A DNA stretch of 64,000 nt. It comes from Sphingomicrobium sp. GTDB lineage: Bacteria > Pseudomonadota > Alphaproteobacteria > Sphingomonadales > Sphingomonadaceae. Position numbers and translations under genes: made by a program. Below the pieces are notes generated by a model. The model had not been told where the DNA came from and did not search any database. It saw nothing but the letters and a program-made list of their open reading frames with translations. Shown in pieces: positions 2,942 through 60,869 of the stretch. The stretch lies in the NCBI GenBank assembly GCA_030447545.1, contig JAUJOV010000007.1, positions 1-64,000 of the forward strand. The letters run 5' to 3'. The stretch's first letter is position 1; every line of letters begins with the position of its first letter.

Positions 2942-4348
2942 CTAGCCTGAGGGAAGGCTGAGCCGGGCGAGCAGGCCGCCGAGGTCCTCGCTCTCCTCGA
3001 GCGTGATCCGGCCGCCGTAGATGTGGGCGACGTCGCGCACGATCGCCAGGCCAAGGCCAGTGCCCGGCTTGTCGGTGTCGAGCCTCGCGCCGCGCTGGAA
3101 GATCGCCTCGCGCTCCTGCGCGGGGATGCCCGGCCCGTCGTCCTCGACCACGACGTCGACCATCGGCCCGTTGGGCTCGACCGTGACGAACACTCGTCCG
3201 CCGCCATATTTGGCCGCGTTCTCGACCAGGTTGCCGATCATTTCGTCGAGGTCCTGCCGCTCCACGCGGACCTGCGCCTTGCGGTCGCCGGCGACGTCGA
3301 CGGTCACTTCCTCGTAGAGCCGGTCGACCGCGCGCTCCACGGCCTCGACGCTGTCCCGCACGCACGCCCGCGCCTGGGCCGAGGCGCGCCGGCCGATCGC
3401 TCGGGCTCGGGCGAGGTGGTGGTCGACCTGGCGGCGCATGATCGAAGCCTCGCGGCACACGCTGTCGGCGAGGTCCGGCGCGCGCGCGGTCGCCGCGTTG
3501 GTAATCACCGTCAGCGGCGTCTTGAGCGCATGGGCGAGGTTGCCGGCGTGCCGCCGCGCCTCCTCCGCCTGCTCCTCGCTGTGGGCGAGAAGCTGGTTGA
3601 TCTCCTCGGTCAGCGGCTGGATCTCGGCCGGAAAGGCCTCGGTGATGCGGGTCTTGGCGCCCGAGCGGATCAGGGCGACCTCACGGCGGACGCGCCGCAA
3701 TGGCCACAGGCCGAAGAAGGTCTGGAGCGCGGCGAGGATCAGCAGGCCGACGCCGAGCGCGAGGAAGCTCCAGAACAGGGTCTCGCGCAGGTCGCGGATC
3801 TGCTGATTGATGGTCTCGCGCGACTGCGCGACCTGGAAGCGCCAGCGCACGTCGGAGCCGGGCAGGACCACGTCGCGCTCGGCGATCCGCAGCGGCTCGT
3901 CCGCGAACTCGTTGCTGTCATAGAAATGGACCTCGATGTCCTTGTGGCGCTCGAGCACCCGCAGCCGGCGGTCCCACAAGGAGCGCGACGGGAAGGTGTC
4001 GGCGCCCTCCCCGCTGACCTGGAAGTAGCGGCCGGAATAGGGCTGCAGGAAGCGTTGGTCGGCGGGCGGGCGGTTGAACCGGACCTCGCCTTCGGGGCCG
4101 ATCTCGGACGCCGCCACGAGCGCAGTGTTCAGGACATATTCGAGCTGCTCGTCGAAATTGTTCTGGATCGAGGCGGTCAGCACCCGGTCGAGCGCGAACC
4201 CGCCGATCAGCAGGAGCGCCGCGATCCACACGGCCGCCACGCCGATCATGCGCCGGGTCAGCGAGCCGACACGCGTTTGCCTGGCTCGCGCCTTTCCGGC
4301 CGGTCGGTCCTCAGCCGCCGCCGCTACGGGGGCGGCATATTCGTTCAA
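2942..4348 (-). CDS. Sensor histidine kinase (PhoQ-like two-component sensor)
   Basis: Membrane-bound sensor kinase of 468 residues, partner of the response regulator encoded 6 bp upstream. Order of parts: cytoplasmic N-terminus, first membrane helix about residues 35-53, a periplasmic sensing segment of about 135 residues, second helix about 192-213, a HAMP-like linker, dimerisation/phosphoacceptor helix with NLAHALKTPLT (phosphorylated His at 273), and a HATPase domain with N-box NLVENAAKYG, G1 DDGPGIP and G2 GTGLGLAI. The AHALKTPL form of the H-box is typical of PhoQ-type kinases. The stimulus is unknown; magnesium or envelope stress would be a guess by family. The frame is intact. Confidence 0.88.
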   Translation of the reverse strand: MNEYAAPVAAAAEDRPAGKARARQTRVGSLTRRMIGVAAVWIAALLLIGGFALDRVLTASIQNNFDEQLEYVLNTALVAASEIGPEGEVRFNRPPADQRFLQPYSGRYFQVSGEGADTFPSRSLWDRRLRVLERHKDIEVHFYDSNEFADEPLRIAERDVVLPGSDVRWRFQVAQSRETINQQIRDLRETLFWSFLALGVGLLILAALQTFFGLWPLRRVRREVALIRSGAKTRITEAFPAEIQPLTEEINQLLAHSEEQAEEARRHAGNLAHALKTPLTVITNAATARAPDLADSVCREASIMRRQVDHHLARARAIGRRASAQARACVRDSVEAVERAVDRLYEEVTVDVAGDRKAQVRVERQDLDEMIGNLVENAAKYGGGRVFVTVEPNGPMVDVVVEDDGPGIPAQEREAIFQRGARLDTDKPGTGLGLAIVRDVAHIYGGRITLEESEDLGGLLARLSLPSG

Positions 4349-8439: not shown

Positions 8440-9374
8440 CCCTCGACTCCGATCCGCTGGATTTCCCATTCAAGGCTGACGCCGCTGTTTGCCAGCACGC
8501 GCCGGCGGACTTCCTCGCCCAGCGCCTCGATGTCCGCGCTGCTCGCCGTGCCGAGGTTGAGGAGGAAGTTGCAATGCTTCTCGGAAACCTGGGCGCCGCC
8601 GACCGTCAGCCCGCGGCAGCCGGCCTCGTCGACCAGCTTCCACGCCTTGGCCCCTGGCGGGTTCTTGAATGTCGAGCCGCCCGTTCGGCTGCGCAGCGGC
8701 TGCGACGCCTCGCGCTCGGCGGCGATGCGGTCCATCTCCGCGCCGATCTCCGCCGGGTCGCCGGGAACGCCCTCGAACAAGGCTTCGACCACGACCGCGC
8801 CGTCGGGCACCTCGCTGTGTCGATAGGTGTAGCCGAGCCGCTCGAGCGGCCAGGTCTCGACGCGTCCATCCCGAAGCACCAGCCGCGCCTCGACCAGGAT
8901 GTCCTTGACCTCGCGCCCGTAAGCGCCGGCGTTCATCCGCACCGCACCGCCGACGGTTCCCGGAATGCCGCGCAGGAACTCGAGCCCGGCGATTCCCGCG
9001 TCGCGCGCGGCCGAAGCGACGGTGATGCCCATCGCTCCGCCGCCGGAGCGAAGGCGATTGCCGGGTTCAACGATTGTCTTGGAAAAACTTTTGGGCAGGC
9101 GAACAACCACTCCCGGAACGCCGCCGTCGCGCACGATCAGGTTCGATCCGACGCCTACGGGAGTAACCGGCAGTGCCGGGTCCAGCGCGGCCAGAAAGCG
9201 CGCAAGGTCCTGCTCGTCACTCGGCCTGACCAGCCATTCGGCCGGGCCGCCGGTGCGGAACCAGATGAAATCGGCAAGGCTCCCATTGGGCTCGATCGAG
9301 CCGGCAACGACCGGCAGCTCCCCCGGCCGCGTTCGGGAGGCGGTTGGGGGGAAGGACTGTTCCTGCAGCTTCAT
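8436..9374 (-). CDS. murB: UDP-N-acetylenolpyruvoylglucosamine reductase
   Basis: FAD-dependent enzyme that reduces UDP-GlcNAc-enolpyruvate to UDP-MurNAc. FAD-binding motifs [14 protein letters not shown] and [17 protein letters not shown] are present, as is [10 protein letters not shown] with the catalytic serine region. The frame is intact at 312 residues. ATG 9374 is chosen because it overlaps the murC stop (ATGA); the frame is open about 50 codons further upstream, but that lies inside murC. The first 25 residues ([20 protein letters not shown]) are low in conservation and may come from a neighbouring palindromic repeat. Confidence 0.92.
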
Positions 9375-10819
9375 ACAGGCCCGACCCCTCCCGCGGGCGG
9401 GAGTGGGGATTTGTTGCGCCTCGCCTGGCAAACTCCGTCGGCCATCGCGGCCGCCCATTTCGTGATGTCCCCGGCCCCCATACAGATCACCAGGTCCCCT
9501 GGCGCGGCGAGGTCGCGAAGCTCGCGGCACAGCTCGTCGAGGCCATCGACGGTGCGGGCCATGCGGTGGCCATGCGCGCGCAGTCCCTCGACCAGCACCT
9601 CGGAGCTCACCCCCTCGATCGGCTCCTCGCCCGCGGGGTAGACCGGCGCCACGAACACGACGTCGGCATCGTTGAACGCGCTCTGGAACTCGTCCATCAG
9701 CGCGTGAAGCCGAGTGTAGCGGTGCGGCTGCGTCACCGCGATGACCCGCCCCTCGGCACCTTCGCGAGCAGCGGCAAGCACCGCCCTGATCTCGACCGGG
9801 TGATGGGCATAATCGTCGATGATGGTGACTCCGTCGATCTCGCCGACCTTGGCAAAGCGGCGCTTCACGCCCTCGAACCGGGCGAAGCCCTCGCGGATCC
9901 TGTCGTCGTCGATGCCGAGCTCGAGAGCCACCGCGATGGCCGCAAGCGCATTCTGCACGTTGTGGCGCCCCGGCATCGGCAGGAACAAATCGTCGATCGT
10001 CCGCCGCGACCCCTCGCGCTCGAGCACCACCGCCTGGAAGCGGCTCCCGCCCGGCTCGGGCGCGACATTATCCGCGCGAAGGTCGGCAAGCGCCGAAAAG
10101 CCGTAGGTGACGATGCGCCGGTCGCGGATGCGGCCGAGGATCGCCTGCACTTCGGGATGGTCGATGCACAGCACCGCTAGACCGTAGAACGGCACGTTCT
10201 CGATGAACTCGCAGAACGCCTTTTTGACCTCGTCGAAGCTGCCGTAATGCTCGAGATGCTCGGGATCGATGTTGGTCACGACCGCGATCGTGCCGTCGAG
10301 CCGAAGGAAGCTGCCGTCGCTCTCGTCGGCCTCCACCACCATCCAGTCGCTTTTCCCGAGCCGCGCATTCGAGCCGTAGCGATTAATGATCCCGCCGTTG
10401 ATCACGGTCGGATCGAGCCCGCCGGCGTCGAGCATCGCGGCAACCATGGAGGTGGTCGTGGTCTTGCCGTGAGTGCCCGCGACGGCGATGGTCTTTTGCA
10501 TCCGCATCAGCTCGGCGAGCATCTCCGCGCGCTTGACGATCGGCAGGCGCCGCTCGACCGCTGCCTCCACCTCGGGATTGCCGCGGCTCACGGCCGACGA
10601 GCAGACGACGACCGCCGCCTCGCCCAGATTGTCCTGGCTGTGGCCGATCGTCACCGGGATGCCGAGCTTGCGAAGCCCCTCGACGACATAGCCGTCCGAT
10701 ATGTCCGACCCCTGCACCTTGTAGCCGAGCTGGTGCATCACTTCGGCGATCCCCGACATGCCGATCCCGCCGATGCCGACGAAATGGATCTTGCCGATGT
10801 CCGTGCCCAAAGCCTTCAT
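9371..10819 (-). CDS. murC: UDP-N-acetylmuramate--L-alanine ligase
   Basis: Mur ligase that adds L-alanine to UDP-MurNAc. The N-terminal Rossmann motif [15 protein letters not shown], the ATP-binding loop [12 protein letters not shown], and the C-terminal [10 protein letters not shown] are all present in one frame of 482 residues. ATG 10819 is preferred to a start at 10876, because the extra 19 residues would overlap murG by 26 bp. The last 17 residues ([16 protein letters not shown]) are encoded by a GC-rich dyad at 9385-9408 and look like an addition to the normal C-terminus. The murC stop overlaps the murB start. Confidence 0.92.
9385..9408. repeat. GC-rich palindromic repeat at the murC 3' end
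   Basis: Imperfect inverted repeat with arms CCCCTCCCGC and GCGGGAGTGGGG. It lies inside the final codons of murC, 10 bp before the murB start. It resembles other dyads of this window (24159, 55817, 57764, 59337) in its CCCCTCCC/GGGAGGGG core. In the mRNA it could form a hairpin upstream of murB. Confidence 0.5.
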
Positions 10820-24156: not shown

Positions 24157-24235
24157 TTCCTCCCCGGCAGTGCCGGGGAGGGGAACCGTAGCTGGTGGAG
24201 GGGTAACTGGCGCTACGTCAGCACCCTCCACCATC
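24157..24235. repeat. Paired palindromic repeat element before purL
   Basis: Two nested dyads. CCTCCCCGGCA/TGCCGGGGAGG (24159-24181) is a perfect 11-bp stem with a one-base loop. GGTGGAGGGGT (24194-24204) pairs with ACCCTCCACC (24223-24232). This is the form of the dispersed REP-like elements seen between genes in sphingomonads. It begins at the lipoprotein stop and ends about 45 bp before purL. Confidence 0.7.
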
Positions 24236-57869: not shown

Positions 57870-60869
57870 TCACGCATGCAATACCCCCTCGCAGCGCCCG
57901 CACAGCGACCCATCCGCCTTCACCTCCGGCAAATGCCGCCAGCAGCGCCCGCACTTGCCGTTCTGCGTCCGCGCGGCCTGCACCGCATCATGCGCGGTCG
58001 TCACCACCACGTCCGAGCTGATGAACAGTTCGGCAAGCTCGGCCGCGCCGAATCCCGCCGGCACCGGCGCCAGGTCGCCAAGCCGCACCTCGGCCTGCAA
58101 GCTCGACCCGATCACCTTGTCGCGCCGCAGCGGCTCGATCGTCTCGGTCACCTGCGCGCGAAGCTGGCGAAGCGCCGCCCACCGCGAAATCGACCGCAGC
58201 GATGCTGGGTTGGGCCATGGTTTCGAGATCCGACCATTCGAGCAAATGCACTGACCCGGCATCGGGGAAGCGCGTCCCCCACACCTCCTCGCTCGTGAAG
58301 ACAAGCACCGGCGAGACCACCGTACCAGCGCGTGAACAGCAGGTCGAGCATGCTGCGATATTGGCGCCGCTTGTCGGTCTGGAAGCCCGTCTGCGCGTTC
58401 ACCTCGCAATACAGGACGTCCTTGCGGATGTCGAAGTAGAAGGCCGACAGATCGTTGTTCGCGAAGTCGGCGATCAGCCGCGTGTAAGTCGGGAAGTCGA
58501 ACTCCTCGACCGCCTGGCGCAGCCTGGTCAAGCTGCGCCGTCAAATGCAGCATGTACCGCTCGAGTTCCGGCATTTCGTCCACCTCCGCGTCATCTTCGT
58601 CTTGCGAAAAACCCTCGACGCGCGCCGAGCAGATAGCGAAACGTATTGCTCAGCTTGCGATACTGGTCCGCGACCCCGCCGAGCGATCTCCTTGCCGATG
58701 CGGTGATCCTCGCTCGAATGACCGACAGCGCCCACAGCCGCAAGATATCGGCCCCATGCTCCTTCATCAGCTCGAGCGGGCTGATGGTATTGCCTAGGCT
58801 CTTCGACATCTTCATGCCGCGCGCGTCCATCGTGAAGCCGTGTGTCAGCACAGCCGCAAACGGCGCCCGCCCGCGCGTCCCGCAGCTTTCCAGAAGCGAC
58901 GACTGGAACCAGCCGCGGTGCTGGTCTCGAGCCCTCGAGATACAGGTCGGCCGGCCAGTCCTGGTCAGGCCAGCGCCCGCTCTCCAGCACGAATGCATGG
59001 GTCGACCCGCTGTCGAACCACACGTCGAGAATGTCGCGCACCATCTCGTAATCGTCCGGGTCACGATTGCCCAGGAACCGCGCCGCATTGGCTTCGTCCC
59101 AGGCATCCACGCCCTCCTCGCGGATCGCCTCGACGATGCGCCGGTTGACCTCGAGATCCACCGAGCTCGCCGGTCGTCCTGCGCGACGAACAAGGCGATC
59201 GGCACGCCCCACGCGCGCTGCCGGCTGATCACCCAGTCCGGCCGCCCCTCGACCATCGACCCGATCCGGTTGCGCCCCTTCTCCGGCACGAACCGCGTAT
59301 CGGCGATCGCCCCATCGCCGTCTCGCGCAGGGGAAAGCCCCTCCCCCTTGCGGGAGGGGCGACCGGCGGCAGCCGAGGGGTGAGGGGACCCGCAGCGTTC
59401 GGCCCTGGAGGACAGCGCCGCGGGCCCCTCCCTCTCCCGAGGGGGAGGAGGGGCCTGTCCATCGCGATGAACCACTGCGGAGTGCAGCGATAGATCACCC
59501 GCGCCTTCGACCGCCACGAATGCGGATAGCTGTGCCGGAAGTCCGCGCTCGCCGCGAGCAGCGCGTCGGCGTCGCGCAGGTCCGAGCAGATCGGCCCGTC
59601 CGGCGCGTTGAACTTGGCGTTGATCACCGACCCCTGCCCGCCGAGCCACAGCCAGTCGTCGCGGTACCGCCCATCGTCGGTCACCGCGAACACCGGGCCG
59701 ATGCCATGGTTCTGGCACAGCGCGAAATCCTCCTCGCCATGGTCTGGCGCCTCGTGGACGAGGCCGGTGCCCTGGTCGGTGGTGACGAAGTCGGCGGCGA
59801 GGAACGGCCGCGGCCTGGCGAAGAAGCCGCCGAGGTGGTGCATCGGGTGGCGCGCGACCGTGCCGGCGAGGTCAGAGCCCATGCCGCTACCATGATCTGC
59901 GCTTATGCCGGAGTTCGATACTTCGGCGCATCCGGGGTGCGCTGCGATCTTCCGGCGTCGTCCTTGAGTTCGCCTGCGACGACGAACGACGGTCCTTCAA
60001 TAGGCGCCGATAAGAAGCTGAACAAGATCAACTGCAACGACGGTATCGGCATGGCTGGCCGTTCGACGATCAGGGCGTACTCGACCTCCTCGCCATAACC
60101 GATCGCCTGGTTCGCCGGGATCGTCCACGGCGTCGTCGTCCAGATCACCGCATGCGCACCGACCAGATCGGCATCGTTCGGCGCCTCGACGATCTCGAAC
60201 GCAACATCGATCTGCGTCGACACCACGTCCTCATATTCGATCTCGGCCTCGGCCAGCGCGGTCTTCTCGACCGGCGACCACATCACCGGCTTCGCCCCGC
60301 GATAAATCTGCCCGCTCTCCGCAAACTTCATCAGCTCGGCGACGATCGTCGCTTCGGCGTCGTATTCCATCGTCAGGTACGGCTTGCCCCATTCGCCGGT
60401 AATCCCGAGTCGCTGGAACTGCTCGCGCTGAACGTCGACCCAGTGCCGCATAGGCGCGGCACTCGGCGCGAAATTCCTTCAGCGGCACCTCGTCCTTGTT
60501 GAGCTTCTTCTTGCGATACTGCTCCTCGATCTTCCACTCGATCGGAAGCCCGTGGCAGTCCCACCCCGGCACGTAGGGCGCGTCCTTGCCCAGCAAAGTC
60601 TGGGTGCGCACCACCATGTCCTTCAACACCTTGTTGAGCGTATGCCCGATATGGATGTCGCCGTTCGCGTAAGGCGGCCCGTCATGCAGGATGAACTTCT
60701 CGCGCCCCGCCCGCGCGCGCGCACCTGCCCGTACAGGTCCTGGCTCCTCCACCGCTCGAGGATCGCCGGCTCCTTCTGCGGCAGCCCCGCCTTCATCGGA
60801 AAGGCGGTCTTCGGCAGGAACACGGTCGGTAGCGCCGGTAATCGGGTTTTTCGGCGGGGCGTCGGACAT
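57870..60869 (-). CDS. ileS: Isoleucyl-tRNA synthetase, frame broken, with in-frame palindromic insert
   Basis: Class I aminoacyl-tRNA synthetase. The N-terminus MSDAPPKNP, then [20 protein letters not shown] (HIGH signature), [113 protein letters not shown] (KMSKS loop) and the C-terminal zinc site [11 protein letters not shown] ... CGRCEGVL are all present. About ten indels break the frame. Two segments do not fit the family: 59325-59462, a palindromic element read in frame, and about 59895-60062, an AT-richer stretch. It is divergent in neither direction: ribF lies upstream on the same strand, lspA downstream. Confidence 0.9.
59337..59455. repeat. Palindromic element inside the ileS coding sequence
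   Basis: Two GC-rich hairpins. GCCCCTCCC/GGGAGGGGC are the arms at 59337-59360, and GGCCCCTCC with GGAGGAGGGGCC the arms at 59423-59454, about 60 bp apart. They have the same core as the intergenic repeats of this window. On the ileS strand they read as [20 protein letters not shown] and onward, without a stop. Confidence 0.75.

Follow-up and report, generated by a model that had tools for sequence, protein, structure and literature searches.

The window, by which we mean the whole 64,000-nucleotide stretch of DNA analysed here, carries on its minus strand the gene for isoleucyl-tRNA synthetase (IleRS), ileS, and within this gene an insert built from two palindromes. The insert is not an isolated case; it is one instance of a wide pattern. 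The features on which the following rests are these:

57890..60869, minus strand: ileS (isoleucyl-tRNA synthetase), placed by frameshift-aware alignment to the related loci L025 and L037, open reading frames (ORFs) and tblastn segments
59457..59474, minus strand: the conserved WFIAMD codons, upstream edge of the loop
59334..59456, minus strand: paired-palindrome insert of about 41 codons, placed by ORFs, fold and matches in its own draft genome
59423..59455, minus strand: first hairpin in gene order, with outer arms GGCCCCTCC/GGAGGGGCC of 9 bp
59337..59360, minus strand: second hairpin in gene order, GCCCCTCCC-GCAAGG-GGGAGGGGC, with 9-bp arms and a 6-nt loop
59287..59330, minus strand: conserved downstream edge, with a frame change inside it near 59312 (a G run)

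The initial annotation had described two GC-rich hairpins after WFIAMD in IleRS, and both are present on the minus strand, at 59423-59455 and 59337-59360. The second of them differs by one mismatch from the core of a repeat family, here called A (CCCCTCCCGCNNGCGGGAGGGG), and the 125 nt from 59334 to 59458 fold with a z-score of -3.48, a value reached by none of 200 dinucleotide shuffles. The insert had been drawn more widely, as 59325-59462 with about 45 codons; the element is real, but the end part of that stretch, LRETAMG (~59330-59310), is ordinary family sequence, since relatives have TLRQ or TLRETAL there, and the element is thus limited to about 59334-59456.

Read-through of the element in frame had also been proposed, and this holds for one side only. 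The frame coming from WFIAMD is open throughout the insert (ORF 59229-59882, minus strand), but the ADTRFV block sits in a different frame of the assembly (ORF 58591-59718, minus strand), so that the gene as assembled has no read-through. Frameshift-aware alignment places the frame change nearest to the insert at ~59312, in a G run outside both hairpins, and finds 17 (against L025) or 18 (against L037) frameshifts in the assembled ileS, a density of ~1 per 170 nt. Because shifts are this frequent in ileS, and because the draft genome (2.32 Mb in 99 contigs, 70% complete) is noisy, the one at ~59312 looks like general assembly noise. We infer that the window's own ileS is in frame in the living cell; with the downstream frame shifted in the assembly, the “in frame” status of the element rests on relatives. 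The density of frameshifts in 57890-60869 suggests that the assembly was left unpolished or is noisy for some other reason, and gene calls in the window should be read accordingly.

A search of the same draft genome returned no near copy of the whole insert, only short partial matches of which the best covers 24 nt at 96%, together with four core sites; the assignment of the window insert to the A/A' class therefore rests on core motifs. In the closed genome of a relative, G020, family A also lies in other genes. The supposed likeness to hairpins between genes elsewhere in the window extends to one pair at 9321-9406 and, loosely, to one hairpin at 24158-24182. The two hairpins at 9321..9406 (minus strand) again resemble family A and stand at what is apparently, judging by the translations, a murC/murB junction; the upstream frame there enters the pair and ends inside it. 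G020 has a family-A pair at 1426806-1426886, upstream of a MurB match with which it shares one long frame. Rfam gave no match on the window at gathering score, and ARAGORN found no tRNA on it.

The site itself is presumably the short connection where the editing (CP1) domain of IleRS returns to the catalytic core. The 40 residues between 456 and 497 of the G020 protein correspond to just three in a solved IleRS structure, 8c9e. In an AlphaFold model of the G020 enzyme (mean pLDDT 78.5, from 37 sequences), residues 464-491 are predicted without secondary structure at pLDDT below 50, and the low-pLDDT loop runs between a strand at 446-455 and a helix at 496-506; other segments of the model, such as 430-447, also fall below 50. 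On this model, the ileS loop is predicted to be disordered.

To see the loop in relatives, we drew on two sets of loci. The upstream IleRS query matched 57 of 61 genomes, and 29 loci from this set (L025-L053) show clearly different kinds of insert at the same place. From a scan of named genomes, the best 80 of 579 confirmed loci were taken, of which 79 were readable. Together these gave 108 rows, 93 from the main sphingomonad clade and 15 from outside it, the latter including L131, which is titled Sphingomonadales; of 109 relative loci, the edge pattern missed one, L141, whose title is not that of a sphingomonad. Rows were chosen by having both loop edges in one frame, so that an ileS broken in frame would be left out of the counts. 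Aligned with these 108 relatives (79 of them from the best 80 of 579 loci), the residues of the insert proved not to be normal family sequence. The expectation that family members would have a shorter, different linker at this place needs restating, as the loop is hypervariable in sphingomonads: the distance from PQWF to RPDW is 45-111 amino acids (median 75) in the 93 sphingomonad rows versus 44-55 in the 15 others.

In 84 of the 108 rows the loop was long enough for a fold test, with 60 dinucleotide shuffles of its DNA as the reference; the remaining 24 loops were too short and were scored as not palindromic. By a threshold of z <= -3, palindromic repeats stand inside the coding gene with the frame kept in 32 of the 108 one-frame loci (79 of these rows being from the best 80 of 579), with the lowest z at -13.3 and three at -3.1. 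Among the genus rows 7 of 29 reach the threshold, as do 25 of the 64 from named sphingomonads and none of the 15 from outside the main sphingomonad clade. It was passed by 3 of 324 control windows, which were similar in length, lay within these genes or next to them and were given 40 shuffles each; one of the three proved to be a further palindromic element of the L112 ileS: at ~4060-4160, upstream of the loop in the same gene, lies another paired palindrome with an open frame. Carriers in the same loop include the named isolates Sphingomonas jeddahensis, S. azotifigens and S. rubra. The ileS inserts form at least five groups, the 32 palindromic rows being divided among A/A' (17), B (4), C (3), D (3), E (2) and other (3), where A/A' denotes the CCCTCCCGC..GCGGGAGGG or CCCTCTCCC types. 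Five further rows with a family label but z > -3 were counted as not palindromic. Among five loci that were read later and are unscored, three loops look palindromic, namely L348 (B) and L351 and L352 (A'-like). The last of these belongs to a genome, G008, with two IleRS loci, one on C44 (L034) with a family B insert and one on C54 (L352) with an A'-like insert, and this doubling is either contamination or a true second copy. In four family-A ileS inserts (L046, L085, L118 and L139), both hairpins are read in the same phases, 2 and 1.

The insert states change repeatedly along the phylogeny. Trees built without the loop require 21 (FastTree) or 23 (IQ-TREE) changes of palindromic state, at least 16 of which are forced by well-supported (starred) branches in both, and 25 and 26 on the two trees when changes are counted by family; these changes may be losses as well as gains. 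Comparisons of near relatives give the same picture at close range. L118 and L120 are 97.6% identical over 878 columns outside the loop but differ in their inserts, which both fall in the broad A/A' class; L081 with an insert and L082 with a 7-residue linker share 94.0% identity outside the loop; and L046, with a family A insert, shares 88.8% and 88.1% with L047 and L048, which have a short linker. Within single clades, for instance among L118, L120, L122 and L124, an ancestral insertion followed by divergence may account for the variants.

The same kinds of repeat occur elsewhere in the genomes. Core patterns of families A, B, C and D, searched with at most two mismatches, were found in 26, 25, 24 and 9 of 61 genomes, respectively, and the reversed control patterns matched in 2, 1, 2 and 0. 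Site counts vary sharply by species, family A having 49 sites in G020 and none in G023, and for family D in G022 the ileS copy is the sole match. In the closed G020 genome, of which 2.44 Mb of 2.85 Mb was examined, family A cores at up to three mismatches amount to 41 hairpins in 26 clusters, including 15 pairs. In each pair two palindromes stand in inverted orientation with starts 51-99 nt apart, and the pairs are multi-copy, which is the arrangement of a REP dimer or REPIN; three to five of the six frames are free of stops across the 15 pairs. Our main count uses pairs only, because a single 22-nt hairpin match can be chance native sequence (the one at 1781114 reads like a lipoprotein signal).

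Ten G020 clusters lie within genes recognised by family, with matching sequence on both sides: MutL, HrpB, ValRS, PCC, DnaE2 (two), ImuB, GcvPB (where the left match is just ~23 residues), CFA synthase and IleRS; the name ImuB is our own reading of matches to IMS and DUF6504. This set takes in six of the 15 pairs, those in MutL, HrpB, ValRS, PCC, DnaE2 and IleRS, and several of the remaining nine are between genes or at gene ends; sites outside the set include some near EF-Ts, ribosomal protein L15 and the RNA polymerase Rpb1-type gene. The frame in which family A is read differs from gene to gene, so that no one peptide has been conserved. In G020 the element divides the profile matches of ValRS and PCC. 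At the ValRS site, read in 21 of 30 loci, G020 has 69 amino acids and the 20 others have 33; for PCC, read in 29 of 30 loci, 5 have a long loop, with at least three kinds of insert, including family A (G020) and a C-type (G026); and the HrpB element of G020 stands in a linker whose length and sequence differ among the 17 other matched genomes. Split ValRS matches in G022, G018, G008 and G028 were considered as further inserts and rejected, as by eye these are longer loops with no evident palindrome. Long unrecognised ORFs that surround some G020 elements (L186:3-1226 and L214:832-4029) match no family, and Pfam identifies EF-Ts and YlxR on the opposite strand, so these elements were excluded from the in-gene count. 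Family B forms 18 clusters in G020, nine overlapping no called gene and the others in or at the edge of called ORFs.

We consider it very probable that elements resembling REP dimers have repeatedly landed in a permissive, predicted disordered loop of IleRS and have been kept when free of stops and in frame. Under this scheme an element consisting of two inverted GC-rich palindromes and a spacer would insert at the short ileS connection; elements that are stop-free and keep the frame would survive, because the essential protein still folds, and selection would remove all others. Across Sphingomonadales, elements of several families would have entered the ileS loop, decayed and been replaced many times, and members of the genus to which the window belongs also carry elements of these kinds in frame in other enzymes. 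Selection on frame would then be the filter for inserts, and the extra peptide is probably neutral in function. The usual mover of REPs appears to be missing, since the RAYT-type transposase (PF01797) was found in just 2 of 41 genus genomes and was absent from G020 and from G000 (70% complete). Inspection by eye of the flanks of the 15 G020 pairs gave no clear case of target-site duplication.

Several other readings of the insert have to be weighed against this one. That palindromes were misassembled into the ileS of a noisy draft is suggested by the 17-18 frameshifts in the gene and by an assembly of 99 contigs that is 70% complete, but comparable elements occupy the same loop in closed G020 and in S. 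jeddahensis, S. azotifigens and S. rubra. Misassembly would not recur at one loop, and as these carriers include a closed genome and independently assembled named isolates, the phenomenon in relatives is independent of this assembly; we regard an artefact as highly improbable. Some evidence also favours a single ancient insert that diverged in place, with the families as its decayed descendants: most of the 93 sphingomonad rows have a long loop (the median is 75 amino acids), a RWxEGG loop that, on a likeness noted post hoc, resembles the tail of one repeat family is conserved in 30 of the 93, and the same question has been raised for Rickettsia RPE-4/6/7 in the portions of PMC3767692 consulted. 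Nevertheless, this history is unlikely to be the right one, because the inserts match several families with multiple copies in genus genomes (apart from D in G022, with its ileS copy alone), near relatives have linkers of 7-8 residues instead, and L029 and L351 have the RWxEGG loop plus a repeat.

A function that keeps the element in place, whether mRNA hairpins pausing ribosomes at a domain boundary to aid folding or a peptide tuning the enzyme, would fit three observations: the element recurs at a single loop of a single essential gene, the mRNA folds are strong (z as low as -13.3), and four family-A ileS loci have their two hairpins in identical reading phases. Many relatives, however, have short or unstructured loops with z near 0, different families give unrelated peptides, and the same repeats occur in unrelated loops of other proteins, so that we give a retained function a small though real chance. 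REPINs, reportedly described in a 2011 study, are two REPs in inverted orientation that form one element, and our elements are like them in having two inverted palindromes per element, with starts 51-99 nt apart and many copies. They are unlike REPINs in that 39 of 41 genus genomes yielded no RAYT gene and in that at least 6 of the 15 G020 pairs are intragenic. With PF01797 in only 2 of 41 genomes and none in G020 despite its 49 core sites, it is improbable that the inserts are REPINs mobilised by RAYT in the strict sense.

Repeated landing of REP-dimer-like elements, the reading we favour, can be carried further. The loop could be a standing landing pad for mobile palindromes throughout the order, with replacement on the scale of sister species, a mover other than RAYT, and a RW(E/D/N)xEGG loop that is a domesticated remnant; this extended version is speculative, though possible. 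Of the 93 sphingomonad loops, 30 contain RW(E/D/N)xEGG or something close to it, and one of the 30, L029, is also palindromic. When DNA of the RWxEGG loops was compared with the A'-type repeat tail, the median best match was 17 of 24, and controls reached at least 17 in 10 of 1800 windows; the query was written after the likeness had been seen and the 30 loops are related, so that this is a lead only. From sequence likeness, these loops may be domesticated remnants of repeats, and if that reading is true, part of the fixed sequence of a core enzyme has come from mobile repeats. The RW(E/D/N)xEGG loop (L079-L140) is common to Sphingopyxis, Novosphingobium, Erythrobacter and the window's genus.

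Among bacteria, palindromic elements read in frame are best known from Rickettsia, and the initial annotation had proposed that a sphingomonad-type element in an essential synthetase would be a comparable case. That comparison is supported by the in-frame elements in the same loop of relatives and by near relatives that are empty there. The portions of PMC3767692 consulted describe RPE palindromic repeats (68-192 in its Table 1) that lie in ORFs without destroying them, in solvent-exposed areas, and the same table gives an RPE-7 of length 144 in a Rickettsia isoleucyl-tRNA synthetase, RJP_0691. The sphingomonad elements are thus like Rickettsia RPE-1 to RPE-7, as far as these are described there, in being in-frame palindromes in coding genes, isoleucyl-tRNA synthetase included, a likeness that is functional. 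According to the same parts of PMC3767692, every orthologue examined there has DNA inserted at the same positions, and the authors prefer a common origin for RPE-4/6/7; they ask whether the Rickettsia sites are hotspots or one diverged ancient insert, and the shared history leaves both possible. Unlike the RPEs so described, the sphingomonad elements have near relatives that are empty or hold different elements. The many changes on the trees, the sister alleles with short linkers and the different families at one loop make the hotspot idea testable, and sphingomonad ileS allows that test in free-living, culturable bacteria. The loop also shows a route by which selfish repeats can enter the protein sequence of core enzymes, and it calls for caution, as gene models in this order can hold repeat-derived segments within conserved proteins.

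Intragenic repeats of the GTAG/CGTC type were reportedly the subject of a 2013 study by Di Nocera, and two of the species that matter here, E. lithoralis and S. alaskensis, we take to be sphingomonads. In its parts consulted, that study (PMC3733652) reports intragenic GTAG/CGTC REPs and REP dimers in genes for repair and RNA-binding proteins, with head-to-head dimers predominating, and REPs in tRNA synthetases of X. oryzae, E. lithoralis and S. alaskensis. It also describes different REPs at about the same recB site in two Xanthomonas species, and CGTC REPs without association to transposase genes, with which the missing RAYT in G020 accords. The stems differ: family A, CCCCTCCCGC-NN-GCGGGAGGGG, has a 10-bp stem and a 2-nt loop, figures that follow from how the pattern was constructed and are also seen in the listed copies, and the window hairpin at 59337-59360 has 9 bp and a 6-nt loop, whereas CGTC REPs as given in these parts of PMC3733652 have 8-9 bp and 4-5 nt, a range outside which family A falls. 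The inner ends of family A are TGTC in 13 of 30 and CGTC in 4 of 30, with TGTC in 108 of 3000 random 18-mers. The parts of PMC3733652 consulted contain no repeated reuse of one loop by several families across an order, and among the papers listed by our literature searches none, judged by title or the start of the abstract, deals with palindromic elements in sphingomonad ileS. Elements of this kind are already known, Rickettsia ileS included; what is new against those papers is that several families turn over at the IleRS loop across the order.

Genes for DNA repair recur among the G020 sites. Between 1785358 and 1790412, the adjoining error-prone repair genes for DnaE2 and an ImuB-like protein together carry three family-A clusters, and MutL and the C-terminal end of UvrA have one cluster each. 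These clusters echo the repair-gene bias that PMC3733652, in the parts consulted, reports for REPs.
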